DNA of 38,876 nt from Clostridia bacterium (GTDB lineage: Bacteria > Bacillota > Clostridia > Christensenellales > Aristaeellaceae), in contig JAFYOR010000086.1 in NCBI GenBank assembly GCA_017547805.1, positions 1-38,876 of the forward strand, given 5' to 3'. The notes beneath the pieces are model-generated. The model saw nothing but the letters and a program-made list of their open reading frames with translations. It did no database searches and was not told the DNA's origin. Made by a program: the position numbers and the translations under genes. Within the stretch, counting starts at the first letter, position 1. Every line of letters starts with the position of its first letter. Shown here one piece after another: positions 16,153-22,575 of the stretch.

Positions 16153-16268
16153 AAACAAATCGGTTTTTGAAAAACTTTTTTTGAAAAGTGAGAAAACCTT
16201 TAATCTGTTTACGGAGCTGCATGTTTCCGCGGAAGCATGCGTCGGCGATTCTCTCCGAGAGGGATAAA

Positions 16269-16301
16269 GAGCCCTCCGCAGAGAGTCGGAGGGCTCAGGC
16301 A
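16269..16301 (-). terminator. Terminator at the downstream end of the tRNA-remnant gene array
   Basis: Perfect 10-bp stem (16269-16278 with 16287-16296), 8-base loop. On the minus strand it is followed by TTTATCCC. It lies 52 bp after the stop of the frameshifted ORF. Confidence 0.75.
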
Positions 16302-16347
16302 TGTTTTATCAGATGGTAACCTCCGCCATGTCATCAAGGGTGAAGAA

Positions 16348-16943
16348 TCATGGGTTCGGATTGTAGTGGATTCGTTCTGTTGCGGCCTTTACGCTGCCTG
16401 TGACGGCCAGGAAACACCGGGTGGCGGAATGCCAGTTTCCGGGCGCGCGGTCGAGAGAATCCTCGTTTTGACCGATGTGCGTTCCGTCGGTGAAAAGCAC
16501 GGCGTTATACTTTCGGTAAGCACAGGAATCGAAGTGCATATAGGCTACAAGGATGTATTCACATCTCACAAGAACGCCGACAAAGCTGCCGTCCTTTACG
16601 ACAATGTCGTTGGGCGCGATATCCGGATGCCTGTAGGTATCTTGATACTCTCCCTGACTTGTTTCATGTCGCTTTCAAAATAAATCGAATACTCGGCCGC
16701 CTGACGGAGGATGCGCTCGTATTCATCGGCGGGATACAGCTTCCTGACCAGATAATACGACCGGTCTTTTTCTTTTATTTGAATGGTGTTATCTGTAGTC
16801 TCGGGCGCATCTGTCAGCGTCCAGAGCACATTGGGTTCAAGGTCAGGATTTCTCAGCATGGTTATTCCCACCGTTTTGCTGCTTAGTGTCAGATGGATGC
16901 TTGGCTTTGCGTCCATCATAACATAGAAGGTGTCATTTATCAA
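16348..16943 (-). pseudogene. Frameshifted ORF of unknown function in the tRNA-Ala array
   Basis: Two minus-strand frames join into one coherent protein. The first (16943-16596) starts at a TTG or at ATG 16919 and runs DTFYVMMDAKPSIHLTL...ESDMKQVRE. The second continues YQDTYRHPDIAPNDIVVKDGSFVG...MRCEYILVAYMHFDSCAYRK to the stop at 16348. The break is near 16650, where GAGAG looks like an extra two bases or equivalent. Combined length would be about 195 residues. I recognise no family. The start has no convincing ribosome binding site, so the 5' end may be damaged too. A tRNA-Ala remnant lies just upstream. Confidence 0.6.
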
Positions 16944-16980
16944 TCGTTTGCAGAATCAGGAACAGAGTAAGAAGTTTTGG

Positions 16981-17025
16981 TCTGCGCGAATGCAGCGCGC
17001 TTCCGAGCGTGCATAACGCAACCCC
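16981..17025 (-). pseudogene. tRNA-Ala remnant D (5' half)
   Basis: From 17025 downwards the minus strand reads GGGGTTGCGTTATGCA, then CGCTCGGAAGCGCGCTGCATTCG. This aligns with remnant B through the 5' acceptor, D arm and anticodon arm with one gap, then diverges. The T arm and CCA are gone. It sits 45 bp after the stop of the winged-helix-like gene and 38 bp before the start of the frameshifted ORF. Confidence 0.6.
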
Positions 17026-17069
17026 GATGTGCTTGTCATAACATCATGGATAGATGGAAATTTGGCTAA

Positions 17070-17273
17070 TCAAAGGTAATATTTTCCATCAACAGTTTTA
17101 TGGATTACATTTGTTTCAACCAACTTATCCGTAATACGCTTGAATCCGTTGGGGTTAATCACACCTGCTTCGGTTAATGTCTTGGCTGTTTCAACAGAAG
17201 TCGCTCCGCATGCTTTCAATTTCTTGATGATTACATTTCTTCTAATGAGTGGGATTGGCGGAAAGAATGCCAT
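17070..17273 (-). CDS. Small winged-helix-like protein
   Basis: 67 residues (MAFFPPIPLIRRNVIIKKLKACGATSVETAKTLTEAGV...GKYYL). AGGAGG lies eight bases upstream of the ATG. The pattern helix-helix-GVINPNGFKRITDKLVETNVIHKTVDGKYYL looks like a short winged helix with a terminal beta wing. Similar short proteins are, as I recall, scattered in Clostridia without known role. Base composition is clearly poorer in GC than the core genes. It is one of four genes on the same strand in the tRNA-Ala remnant array. DNA binding is possible, not shown. Confidence 0.7.
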   Translation of the reverse strand: MAFFPPIPLIRRNVIIKKLKACGATSVETAKTLTEAGVINPNGFKRITDKLVETNVIHKTVDGKYYL

Positions 17274-17330
17274 AGGATTATCCTCCTGTCAAATTCAAGT
17301 ATATCTAATAGGTTAACATGGAATAAAAGA

Positions 17331-17354
17331 AAAAACCAGCCCTTTCGGACTGGT
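17331..17354 (-). terminator. Terminator attached to tRNA remnant A
   Basis: Stem 17335-17342 with 17347-17354 (one G-U pair), TTTC loop (GAAA on the transcript), followed on the minus strand by TTTTTTCTTTT-like sequence. It starts four bases after the CCA of remnant A, as in the functional tRNA unit. Confidence 0.75.
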
Positions 17355-17357
17355 CTG

Positions 17358-17439
17358 TGGTGGAGCATATCGGATTCGATTCCTATGACCTCTACAATGC
17401 GAATGTAGCGCGCTACCGAAGGATACCTAACTCAGCCCC
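17358..17439 (-). pseudogene. tRNA-Ala(CGC)-derived remnant A, 82 nt with CCA
   Basis: Minus strand begins GGGGCTGAGTTAGG and ends TATGCTCCACCA. The anticodon arm (CTACA-TTCGCAT-TGTAG) is identical to the functional tRNA-Ala(CGC), and G3-U70 and encoded CCA are kept. The D arm is replaced by a longer TAGGTATCCTTCGGTAGCGC form, and the T loop reads GGAATCGAATCC instead of CCGGTTCGAATCCGG. The acceptor pairs at only five positions. It should not fold as a normal tRNA. The stop and last eight sense codons of the metallophosphoesterase lie inside it. Confidence 0.75.
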
Positions 17440-17994
17440 ATTCTCTTTCGTTGCAGTCTTCTGCTGACGGAAAAGTGCGTTATTTTCAATCAATTCGTCC
17501 AGAGTGGCTGGCGTATAGCCGTTGAGCATGCAGCCTGCATTCAGAGCATGGTCAAAACGGCTCATAAACTGATATACATCATCCCTGCGTATGTGCAAAT
17601 GACCGAACACATGATATCCGCCATAACGCTTGCCATTCCATTCGGCAATAGGAAAATGGCAGAGACATACGGAACGTTCACCATCAACTAAATGCATCAT
17701 CTTGTCAACGGATTCAAAGCAAGAAATAGCCGATGAGTCTGCCAAAGTATGACGATCGTGGTTTCCGATCAGCAAATGTTTTTTTCCTTTGAGCCGACGA
17801 AGATACCATGTGGCCGAATAGCCGTTGCGATAAGCAAAATCGCCTACAATGTAAACGTCATCATTCTCTGCAACTTTTTCGTTCCAGCGGCTGATCAAGG
17901 CAGCGTCCATCTCTTCAATGCTCGAAAATGGTCTCTTATCCATGTCGATGACACGTGCATGACCAAAGTGCAAATCGGAAATATAGTAGATCAT
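17413..17994 (-). CDS. Calcineurin-like metallophosphoesterase
   Basis: 193 residues from the ATG giving MIYYISDLHFGH; the frame starts earlier but GGGGGA nine bases upstream supports this one. Full metal set: D7-x-H9, G51-D52, G77-N78-H79-D80, H113 and G131-H132-L-H134. This is the small YfcE/MJ0936-like or phage-type phosphoesterase group, which hydrolyses phosphodiesters; substrate unknown. The last eight residues (GAELGILR) are encoded by tRNA remnant A and lie beyond the usual NGY(T/M)P...LIENN end of the family, so the remnant only supplies a tail. GC content is low compared with neighbours outside the array. Confidence 0.88.
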   Translation of the reverse strand: MIYYISDLHFGHARVIDMDKRPFSSIEEMDAALISRWNEKVAENDDVYIVGDFAYRNGYSATWYLRRLKGKKHLLIGNHDRHTLADSSAISCFESVDKMMHLVDGERSVCLCHFPIAEWNGKRYGGYHVFGHLHIRRDDVYQFMSRFDHALNAGCMLNGYTPATLDELIENNALFRQQKTATKENGAELGILR

Positions 17995-18114
17995 AGTTGC
18001 GCTTCCCCCTTCCTCAATTGTTTGTTCAAACAATTATATCATATCAAAAACGTAGAGTTTTGAAAAGCATTTCCGTCTGTTCCGGCGATTTGCGTTGGCT
18101 TCAGCAATAAAGCA

Positions 18115-18143
18115 AAAGACCTTCTCAAAAGGAGAAGGTCTTT
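18115..18143 (-). terminator. Terminator attached to tRNA remnant B
   Basis: Perfect 12-bp arms (18115-18126 with 18132-18143), 5-base loop; the minus strand continues into TTTGC. Its core ACCTTCTC/GAGAAGGT is nearly the same as the terminator of the functional tRNA-Ala(CGC) (TCCTTCTC/GAGAAGGA), so tRNA and terminator appear to have been duplicated together. Confidence 0.8.
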
Positions 18144-18144
18144 G

Positions 18145-18226
18145 TGGTGGAGCATACCGGATTCGATTCCTATGACCTCTACAATACGAATGCAGCGCGC
18201 TGCCGAAGGATGCCTATCTCATCCCC
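18145..18226 (-). pseudogene. tRNA-Ala-derived remnant B, 82 nt with CCA
   Basis: Same length as remnant A and identical at 75 of 82 positions by hand count, including the altered D arm and T arm. The anticodon loop reads TTCGTAT (CGT), the acceptor pairs at only four positions, and the CCA and G3-U70 pair remain. It lies 28 bp after the stop of the GyrI-like gene and is followed at once by a terminator. Confidence 0.75.
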
Positions 18227-18253
18227 GATCGAGAGGTTCAGATTGGGACTTAA

Positions 18254-18718
18254 TTAGATGGCTCTGATTGGGAAAAACATATAGTTCTTTCCATTGGCTG
18301 GACAAGTAAAATCGTGAACTGCCCCAACCAATGCAATACTGTTTGTTACCATGTAGCTTAGTATCTCTGCGAACGTATTTTCGTTTTCTGTTTCTGCACA
18401 AATATATTCAAAACCCGGAATCGTCCATTTTGTCCATCCCTGGGGCGCTTCAGCATCATCAACACACTCGACACCAGCAAGGTATAGTCCTTTGCTGAAG
18501 TTATCTTCCCACGGCTTGTATGCATGGGAACAATCGGACATTGCACCCCAAATACCAACCAAATTGCCATTTTCGTCTTTTTTAGCCAACGGCTGAACTT
18601 CGCTAAAATGAGAGTTCGCATCCGACCATAATTTTTGAATAAAGCCTTGACCATCCATAGTTGAACCTTCTTTACCGATTACAACGAATGTATCTTTTAT
18701 GCGCTTCTCGATCTTCAT
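18254..18718 (-). CDS. GyrI-like / AraC effector-binding-domain protein
   Basis: 154 residues starting MKIEKRIKDTFVVIGKEGS, with GGAGGG six bases upstream of the ATG. The order beta strand (TFVVIGKEGS), helix with W (IQKLWSDANSHF), VGIWGAMSD, YLAGVECVDD, GWTKWTIPGFEYICAE and a final FPI strand is that of stand-alone GyrI-like small-molecule-binding proteins, related to the effector domains of BmrR and Rob. They bind hydrophobic or cationic ligands, or gyrase in the case of GyrI. No HTH is present. GC content is low and the gene sits between tRNA remnants B and C, so recent acquisition is likely. Confidence 0.8.
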   Translation of the reverse strand: MKIEKRIKDTFVVIGKEGSTMDGQGFIQKLWSDANSHFSEVQPLAKKDENGNLVGIWGAMSDCSHAYKPWEDNFSKGLYLAGVECVDDAEAPQGWTKWTIPGFEYICAETENENTFAEILSYMVTNSIALVGAVHDFTCPANGKNYMFFPIRAI

Positions 18719-18795
18719 ACGAACCCTCCAAATTCAAGTTTATCGAGTATATGATAGCATGAATAGATGCAGGTATCAATCGTACATGGATGAAA

Positions 18796-18825
18796 AGCGG
18801 ACAATTCATCGCTGAATTCTCCGCT
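18796..18825 (-). terminator. Terminator-like hairpin attached to tRNA remnant C
   Basis: Arms 18796-18808 and 18813-18825 pair with one internal mismatch around a 4-base loop; the minus strand continues TTTTCATCC. Confidence 0.65.
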
Positions 18826-18839
18826 CTGGTAAATCATGC

Positions 18840-18883
18840 ACCAAGCAATGCGAATGCGTCGCTACCAACTGTGCTAATGCCCT
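18840..18883 (-). pseudogene. tRNA-Ala(CGC) remnant C (5' half)
   Basis: Minus strand GGGCATTAGCACAGTTGG then TAGCG is identical to the functional tRNA-Ala(CGC) through the 5' acceptor and D arm, and the CATTCGCATTG anticodon part is kept. The T arm and 3' acceptor are lost. Its D arm is of the functional type, unlike remnants A, B and D. Confidence 0.7.
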
Positions 18884-18967
18884 ATGTGAATTTGTTCGAT
18901 TTCTTATACCAATTACGTTTTTGTGCAATTGGACTGATATTTTCGCTTTGTTCCATACATAATGAAA

Positions 18968-18993
18968 AAGTCCTTCTCTTTCGAGAAGGACTT
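18968..18993 (-). terminator. Terminator of tRNA-Ala(CGC)
   Basis: Perfect 11-bp arms (18968-18978 with 18983-18993), 4-base loop, minus strand continuing TTTCAT. The hairpin begins at the last base of the encoded CCA. Confidence 0.82.
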
Positions 18994-19068
18994 GGTGGAG
19001 CATACCGGATTCGAACCGGTGACCTCTACAATGCGAATGTAGCGCGCTACCAACTGTGCTAATGCCCC
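18993..19068 (-). tRNA. tRNA-Ala (anticodon CGC), CCA encoded
   Basis: 76 bases. Acceptor GGGGCAT/ATGCTCC with G3-U70, anticodon stem CTACA/TGTAG around TTCGCAT (CGC, reading the GCG codons common in this genome), T arm ACCGG-TTCGAAT-CCGGT, A73 and CCA. The D stem GCAC/GCGC has an A12-C23 mismatch. Four degenerate relatives of this tRNA lie downstream on the same strand. Confidence 0.93.
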
Positions 19069-19075
19069 ATAAAGA

Positions 19076-19140
19076 TATGTAAAGCGAATTGAATCGGTTT
19101 CGCTGTTGACCGTTGTCGGGTGATCTCCCGAACGAAGTAC
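19076..19140 (-). promoter_or_regulatory. Leader upstream of tRNA-Ala(CGC)
   Basis: About 65 bases between the promoter and the tRNA, containing a TCGGG/CCCGA hairpin (19116-19131) close to the transcript start. No coding capacity. Confidence 0.4.
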
Positions 19141-19168
19141 ATTATACCACGTTTTCTGTGAAATGCAA
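19141..19168 (-). promoter_or_regulatory. Promoter of tRNA-Ala(CGC)
   Basis: Minus strand TTGCAT (19168-19163), 16-bp spacer, perfect TATAAT (19146-19141). Confidence 0.6.
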
Positions 19169-19216
19169 GAGGGGATTTCAACTTTTTTTGAAAAAACAGG
19201 CAGAAAAAGCAAAGAA

Positions 19217-22290: not shown

Positions 22291-22575
22291 AAAAACGCCT
22301 CACGTCTCCATTTACTGGAAACGTGAGGCGGAAAGTTCTTCCGTGGTGCCACTCACTTTGGCCGGAAAACCCAGCCCGCTTAACCCCGTACCAACATACG
22401 GTGCAGCTGGATAACGGGTCTGCGTCCCGTCCCTGTCTAATAAGGCGGACGCCCGTTGACAGGGCCCTCAGAAAGCCCATTTCAAAAACCCATCTGTACC
22501 GCATTCCCAGCAACGGCGGCTCTCTTTGACAGCGTGCGATTTTCTACTTCTCTTTCCTCAAGCGGTTTGGTATTT
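22291..22575 (-). promoter_or_regulatory. T-box riboswitch (tryptophan-type) in front of trpXYZ
   Basis: Minus-strand leader of about 285 bases. Stem I shows the AG-bulge AGAGAG (22525-22520) and a GCTGGGAA distal loop. A UGG specifier candidate lies at 22479-22477 within GAAATGGGC. The T-box sequence AGTGGCACCACGG (22353-22341) presents UGGC, complementary to the GCCA end expected of tRNA-Trp. A terminator with a 14-bp stem of one mismatch (22296-22309 with 22317-22330) and TTTTTC tail follows. Uncharged tRNA-Trp should stabilise the antiterminator and switch on the transporter. Confidence 0.88.

Follow-up and report, generated by a model that had tools for sequence, protein, structure and literature searches.

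How does it come about that one intact tRNA gene is followed by a row of single, unrelated genes alternating with tRNA-like elements? The question is raised by a stretch of 38,876 nucleotides (nt) from Clostridia bacterium (Aristaeellaceae; GenBank assembly GCA_017547805.1, contig JAFYOR010000086.1), which we call the window and whose positions are used below. (Numbers with G, C and L are our handles for genomes, contigs and loci.) We consider it probable that the array is a stack of insertion products, formed at tRNA-Ala(CGC) as the attachment site (attB) by large serine recombinases (LSRs) of phages or islands, with passengers lacking an LSR inserted in trans. Of its parts, the stacking of LSR insertion products at the tRNA gene is well supported by the sequence comparisons, and the single-gene units that share a leader but lack an LSR were probably moved in trans as non-autonomous passengers.

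A preliminary description had proposed an array of tRNA-Ala(CGC)-related copies and single genes at this place. The array is real, and since a second one of the same make exists on contig C80 of the same genome, it is not a product of chance. The C80 array consists of tRNA-Ala(CGC), a terminator, one metallophosphatase gene (Pfam Metallophos), an 82-nt copy and a terminator. The window array has the following features.

18993..19068, minus strand: intact tRNA-Ala(CGC), called by ARAGORN and Rfam as had been proposed; by half-site length, the proposed attB (20-nt B arm, crossover AG, B' arm)
18968..18993, minus strand: terminator hairpin immediately 3' of the tRNA (hairpin scan)
18725..18993, minus strand: conserved cassette leader of about 265 nt, including element C; 76% identical to the leader of G009:C3
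18846..18883, minus strand: element C, resembling a tRNA-Ala 5' half (18846-18882 aligned with tRNA positions 2-40)
18751..18779, minus strand: promoter-like TTGATA-17-TATCAT upstream of passenger gene 1 (consensus match only)
18254..18718, minus strand: passenger gene 1, GyrI/Cass2-like effector-binding protein of 154 amino acids (aa) (list of open reading frames (ORFs), Pfam)
18145..18226, minus strand: element B, attR-like, with a P arm scoring 13.0 and a tRNA 3' half whose T-arm is altered (nhmmer, arm matrix)
18115..18143, minus strand: terminator 3' of element B (hairpin scan)
17413..17994, minus strand: passenger gene 2, 193 aa, metallophosphoesterase-like by eye and in the preliminary description
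17358..17439, minus strand: element A, attR-like, P arm score 16.4, altered T-arm (nhmmer, arm matrix)
17333..17356, minus strand: terminator 3' of element A, nearly identical to the one after the C80 copy (hairpin scan)
17070..17273, minus strand: passenger gene 3, small ORF of 67 aa, called winged-helix-like only in the preliminary description
16986..17024, minus strand: element D, degenerate 5' part of the 82-nt element, P arm score 1.5, below the 99.9% background (nhmmer)
16596..16943, minus strand: passenger ORF 4, 115 aa, without a confident family (ORF list, Pfam)

Elements A and B are 91.5% identical over 82 nt (nhmmer E 1.4e-26 and 1.2e-25, with a profile that included both), and the C80 copy is 91.5% identical to A and 90.2% to B. 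We call this element P82. Four degraded tRNA relatives had been claimed. A, B and C are indeed tRNA-like, but A and B belong to one conserved family while C is another kind of element, and D is a weak nhmmer match (E 2.9e-4). The gene stops had been placed 28 bp before B, inside A and 45 bp before D, and they lie accordingly at 18254, 17413 (within A) and about 17070; the stop codon TAG of passenger gene 2 (17413-17415) is the TAG at the proposed crossover of element A. The claimed terminators were found directly after the tRNA, B and A, but none is listed after C by the hairpin scan; terminator-like hairpins number 7 on both strands of 16200-19200, against 2.6 +/- 1.7 in shuffles. The region is AT-richer than the rest, as had been stated for its genes, with a GC content of 0.444 (16300-18970) versus 0.586 elsewhere, the lowest of 182 equal-size windows. 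Promoter-like consensus matches number 8 in the region, versus 5.8 +/- 2.5 in shuffles. Passenger gene 1 matches Cass2 at E 5e-4 and 20.7 bits, under the curated cutoff of 27, and a Pfam search with passenger gene 2 gave no match.

A census of P82, made by BLAST of element A in 60 genomes (29 of the genus) and by inspection, yielded 24 copies in eight of the 29 genus genomes (G000, G003, G005, G007, G009, G010, G016 and G026) and one phage contig. This number includes the hybrid adjacent to the LSR of the phage contig (vir1); it leaves out D, the degenerate copies in L045 (5840-5911), L072 and L074, and hybrids of other arm types (L047:1851, L065, L073, L075, L077). Thirteen of the 24 have an intact tRNA-Ala(CGC) upstream on their contig and strand, within 3 kb for 11 of them and at 27-29 kb for two, and three others are located behind an LSR gene. 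The remaining eight are on three contigs without a tRNA, which is explained by the contigs being cut at most 0.8 kb from the first P82. The repeating unit of gene, tRNA-derived element and terminator that had been suggested from the window is thus borne out by 24 sites with unrelated cargo: among 25 cargo proteins compared, there is one matching pair, limited to a helix-turn-helix domain. There is one gene per recombination site and the genes differ, with the exceptions of two-ORF units (L042, L049) and an opposite-strand gene in L044. Cargo genes have a GC content of 0.35-0.49, and their families include glyoxalase, maltose acetyltransferase, HNH nuclease, YjbR, AraC-GyrI/Cass2, nucleotidyltransferase, PAP2, DUF6199, DUF3784 and DUF3592; several cargo proteins matched no family in domain searches.

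The link to LSRs comes from the phage contig (L119). It encodes a 547-aa LSR with Resolvase, Recombinase and Zn_ribbon_recom domains, followed by a hybrid of a P82-like left arm and the exact tRNA 3' half, a one-gene unit and another P82. In both L119 and L047, LSR, attR, single-gene unit and P82 stand in tandem, that is, an integrase-less unit lies next to an integrase-bearing element. In the genus, three close relatives of this LSR (65-70%) each precede a hybrid of P arm and tRNA, and among 300 genomes sampled from the family, 33 contain a relative at E 1e-80. We have examined 31 LSR loci (among LSR rows without a locus, only G268:C1:22675 was looked at). At 19 of them the LSR is at least 56% identical, the query L119 included; two of the 19 are cut by contig ends. 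A hybrid is found beside 16 of the 17 LSRs having downstream DNA, at 51-225 nt past the stop codon in 15 cases and behind a broken LSR in one. Compared with named phages, the LSR hit four records, all under 40% identical. Among viral contigs, LSR relatives were found only in L119 by a single-protein query that reaches close relatives only, and the exact P82 motif also only in L119. The preliminary description had advised looking for a site-specific recombinase elsewhere in the genome. The search did uncover LSRs of phages and islands that integrate at tRNA-Ala(CGC), but none close in the genome of the window itself.

By sequence and length, the left arm of P82 reads as the attP half-site of this LSR clade. 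The arm up to the crossover AG is 20 nt long in the tRNA and 25 nt in P82, where 18 of the 24 copies have this length as printed and four more when counted from GGGG (the two others are G3a and G16a). Sections of a study on LSR sites (PMC3783163) give an attP half-site of 25 bp and an attB whose zinc-ribbon (ZD) motif is displaced 5 bp, nearer the centre. The arms of 25 and 20 nt are consistent with attP and attB half-sites and this 5-bp shift. We further built an arm matrix from 14 LSR-adjacent arms, L119 excluded, with 14,133 AG-preceding 26-mers as background (P82 sites included; 99.9% at 5.7). All P82 arms but one exceed the 99.9% level (23 of 24; G16a scores 3.0), while the tRNA arm scores -13.3.

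In the mechanism that we propose, tRNA-Ala(CGC) would serve as attB, and the strands would cross over at the AG of GGT-AG-CGCG, or close to it, in the D-arm region. Every insertion would leave a hybrid of P arm and tRNA 3' half at the far end of the insert, which would be P82, an attR, and the tRNA at the upstream flank would stay complete and open to the next insert. As the upstream tRNA remains complete, genes would pile up between it and the older hybrids, which fits the stepwise growth next to the tRNA that had been suggested before. We infer both that the newest unit would lie nearest the tRNA and that any unit might still be moving.

The other end of such insertions may be seen upstream of tRNA-Ala(CGC), where 10 tRNA 5' fragments joined to a right arm exist in seven of nine loci scanned (L058, L063, L066, L076, L120, L168 and L176, selected once BLAST had revealed such pieces; L061 and L062 have none). 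We read them as attL because their reverse-complemented scores are all 11-25, and the intact tRNA about 100 nt past the attL fragment reads as one supplied by the element. G268 carries, in succession, two attL fragments, the tRNA, LSR elements of 3.3 kb and 25.7 kb, and two attR; G318 has one attL fragment and an 11.7-kb LSR element; and G198 has a 5.8-kb LSR element without an attL fragment. Each of the seven loci has one or two attL fragments, about 100 nt apart, and their number may count past insertions. For the LSR elements of G268 and G318, a split host tRNA and an element-borne tRNA of the same isotype are thus present, judged from the layout of the sequence only. Likewise, in tRNA-dependent lysogeny the element splits the host tRNA gene and brings its own copy, through tyrosine integrases of actinobacteriophages, as told in part of PMC10865867. 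The succession of attL fragment, about 100 nt and intact tRNA in the seven loci is alike, but in G268 and G318, where both ends are seen, a serine recombinase is the integrase next to attR. The window array differs as well, with no attL fragment within 600 nt upstream of its tRNA.

Empty and filled sites can be compared in two cases. The sequence after P82 in G026 (L047) matches that after the plain tRNA in G027 and in G026:C7 from the first base past CCA, with identities of 76-98% in the 50-bp bins that cover the 250 bp following CCA, while upstream identity is 38-59%, i.e., background. G010 shows the same junction pattern against G026:C7 across about 150 bp. The flank common to empty and filled sites has an ORF that looks transposase-like by eye. 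The preliminary description had named different genes with exact junctions in different strains as support for cassettes. Related genomes do have different genes between the repeats, and exact junctions are seen in G026/G027 and G010/G026, but the window array has no matched empty site, and its downstream synteny (DegV) was not found in the other loci compared.

The leader was found at 16 places in seven genomes (at least 60 aligned bases, query counted), and at 15 of them, all but one in L045, it stands, whole or partial, after a tRNA or P82. Identity between leaders reaches 97% across species and 94% between two loci of G009, before divergence or the contig end sets in, and they precede different genes wherever the contig continues. 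Element C is part of this leader and a different kind of element from P82. We also tried it as an attL, but this was ruled out with 11 of 11 scores negative, and its right side gave no LSR P' arm score.

On the other hand, several observations weigh against stacked LSR insertion with transfer in trans. One of the 17 LSRs with downstream DNA (L151) has no hybrid alongside. Seven of the eight array genomes have no LSR relative at E 1e-20 (the array metagenome-assembled genomes (MAGs) are 77-96% complete), and only G026 has a close one; conversely, G002 and G014 have an LSR and no P82 array was found in them. The rules given in the part of PMC3783163 available allow the pair attP x attB, under which the insertion of an attR-bearing circle into attB is non-canonical, and no circular cassette was seen in the sequences examined. 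Element C has no explanation under the LSR model. A further difficulty lies in the right halves. The tRNA-Ala(CGC) 3' part of P82 is exact in 4, mixed in 14 and of another type in 6 of the 24 copies. The T-arm is altered in 20 of 24, yet the array-head tRNAs present are intact, and with a crossover at the AG an altered T-arm would pass into the tRNA and damage it. Since all 16 LSR-adjacent hybrids retain a plain T-arm, most P82 copies differ from a fresh attR. Either the altered sites are disused, or there is a second crossover place in the T-loop, or the halves have been homogenised within genomes. The last is suggested by G009, whose three sites have a common odd right half regardless of the left arm. 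A possible exception to the intact head tRNAs is a degenerate tRNA/P82-like copy with altered T-arm at locus 1 of G019 (L072:1610-1697), which may be an old P82 or a broken head tRNA; ARAGORN calls no tRNA there.

These difficulties should be weighed together with other explanations. The simpler alternative offered in the preliminary description, repeated insertion and decay in a tandem tRNA cluster, lost its support because the P82 left arm is an LSR half-site and not decayed tRNA; random decay of tandem tRNAs is excluded by the conservation of the P82 family, the 25- versus 20-nt arms and the matrix scores. We regard it as unlikely that the units were never mobile and are relics of full LSR phages or islands reduced to one cargo gene, with the hybrids being true attR. 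A phage and LSR elements measuring about 3.3, 5.8, 11.7 and 25.7 kb do occupy the same kind of site, the missing close LSR in seven of eight array genomes and the mostly altered right halves agree with it, and D and the copies in L045, L072 and L074 are decayed. However, random trimming should not yield one standard left end, so that a single leader before different intact genes, with the identities given above, counts against relics, and no leader was detected behind those tRNAs of G016:C112, G017 and G020 that have attL fragments, nor on the viral record of L120. Homologous recombination, in which RecA would swap, duplicate and delete genes via the P82 and tRNA repeats and an LSR would only have founded the first site, also seems improbable to us. 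It would account for the three types of right half, whose switch points fall inside stretches common with the tRNA, for the odd right half shared by the three G009 sites despite differing left arms, and for two genes beyond locus 2 of the window's genome that sit at locus 1 in G019. Nevertheless, repeats of 82 bp are short for frequent RecA exchange, and there are four exact junctions of P arm and tRNA, two of which have matching empty sites.

Very unlikely, and not favoured, is an RNA role, where P82 and C would be kept as tRNA-like RNAs (e.g., mRNA 3' ends or decoys) and the array would be a side effect. In its favour, the acceptor arm is paired in 96% and the anticodon arm in 91% of cells. 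Overall, 87.4% of cells are paired and the covariation score is 0.108; for either measure, just 2 of 500 shuffles get as high. ARAGORN also calls some LSR-adjacent hybrids tRNA. But 14 of 24 P82 copies have the T-stem pair 57-71 broken, and just two pairs show changes on both sides, which is also the case for 288 of 500 shuffles. The pairing of the other arms follows from tRNA ancestry, and related sequences can beat shuffles without structure. A possible, though rather doubtful, extension of stacked LSR insertion would be an analogue of the integron, with the tRNA as docking site, P82 as cassette site, and leader-bearing single-gene circles captured and shuffled in trans by phage LSRs. There, since the tRNA and a fresh P82 have like right halves, an exchange between tRNA and P82 would also be the reaction that reverses it, and the altered T-arm may lock cassettes in place, since excision would break the tRNA.

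The best-known arrays for the capture of single genes are those of integrons, which have a tyrosine integrase. In integrons and in integrase-less attC clusters, unrelated genes stand singly at one head site, each accompanied by its recombination site, and one cargo family of the P82 arrays, Cass2, is named after integron cassettes. The integron model invoked in the preliminary description is not supported as membership: PF00589, the tyrosine integrase family, occurs in at least 28 of the 29 genus genomes, but none of its 72 places in the eight array genomes is on a contig with P82 or leader (several such contigs end inside arrays), and the P82 sites are tRNA-derived LSR hybrids; attC sites were not searched for. 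We thus rejected a tyrosine integrase as the agent. In how it works, the array resembles cis-mobilizable elements accumulating at a tRNA and, broadly, an integron array, but we do not file it as an integron. Staphylococcal cassette chromosome (SCC) elements target a protein gene and have much larger units than the P82 arrays. Their likeness lies in serine recombinases that place elements, some in tandem, at one chromosomal gene (partly from PMC3146451). Similar features are found in the ssrA-specific genomic islands of Dehalococcoides, where, in the portion of PMC3146451 available, a CcrB-like serine recombinase (DsiB) targets the transfer-messenger RNA gene, the units are in tandem with direct repeats whose upstream flank is unlike the gene, GC is low, and recombinase-less members are proposed as cis-mobilizable elements. 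Those islands are larger, with 20-bp repeats and insertion at the T-loop, whereas in P82 arrays the crossover is further 5', each site has a whole 25-nt P arm, the units are mostly of a single gene and a leader is common to them. According to excerpts of PMC10872708, additive islands at tRNA-Lys in Methylopumilus likewise have variable genes between tRNA 3'-end repeats, but of 20 bp, and tycheposons differ by a tyrosine recombinase and units of 4-200 kb. Among the papers listed by our searches we saw no identical system, which does not show that none is in print; in an LSR survey (PMC10083194), 'trna' does not occur in the main text.

If phage serine recombinases do maintain such arrays at a tRNA gene, integron-type gene capture arose more than once and gut Clostridia hold an unmapped reservoir of it, which could easily be searched for with the 82-nt element. 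Replacement of the tRNA, as described for tyrosine-integrase phages, would then hold for serine recombinases as well, and a related LSR group lies near tRNA-Val. This group comes from the other 12 LSR loci, which are 39-44% identical: five lie near tRNA-Val(CAC), four at 272-360 nt and one at 1,152 nt (L154, L157, L159, L160, L161), and the other seven have no tRNA within the 1.5 kb covered. The LSRs near tRNA-Val(CAC), about 43% identical, are possibly a sister group aimed at another tRNA.

A motif scan of genome contigs, from which records near the window's genome are possibly omitted, gave nine stretches, six of them in known arrays (ruminant-rectum Clostridia MAGs). The remaining ones are a fragment beside clustered regularly interspaced short palindromic repeats (CRISPR), in the MAG of two array stretches, and one each in a Bacteroidales and a Burkholderiales MAG. 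In the G005 MAG, an exact 24-nt piece of the P82 right half lies beside a CRISPR array (L116:5512-5535). G007 and G016 have a common DUF5131 gene past the last P82 and differing units before it; the first ~200 nt after P82 are unalignable. In L055 (144-1337), the place behind the passenger gene where P82 would be expected is taken by a transposase-like gene that resembles IS110 by eye, with no P82 half seen at its edges. A homologue (70%) of the window's passenger gene 2 is located downstream of the G016 array (L046:2912-3469), with no adjoining P82 by profile search. Short repeats made of the final 23-25 nt of the tRNA, with a T-loop junction, lie near the tRNA at L068:4245-4268, L177:4286-4308 and L177:4538-4562, pointing to another integrase type at the same gene. 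Elsewhere in the window, a T-box leader (Rfam RF00230) is found at 22321-22571 on the minus strand.

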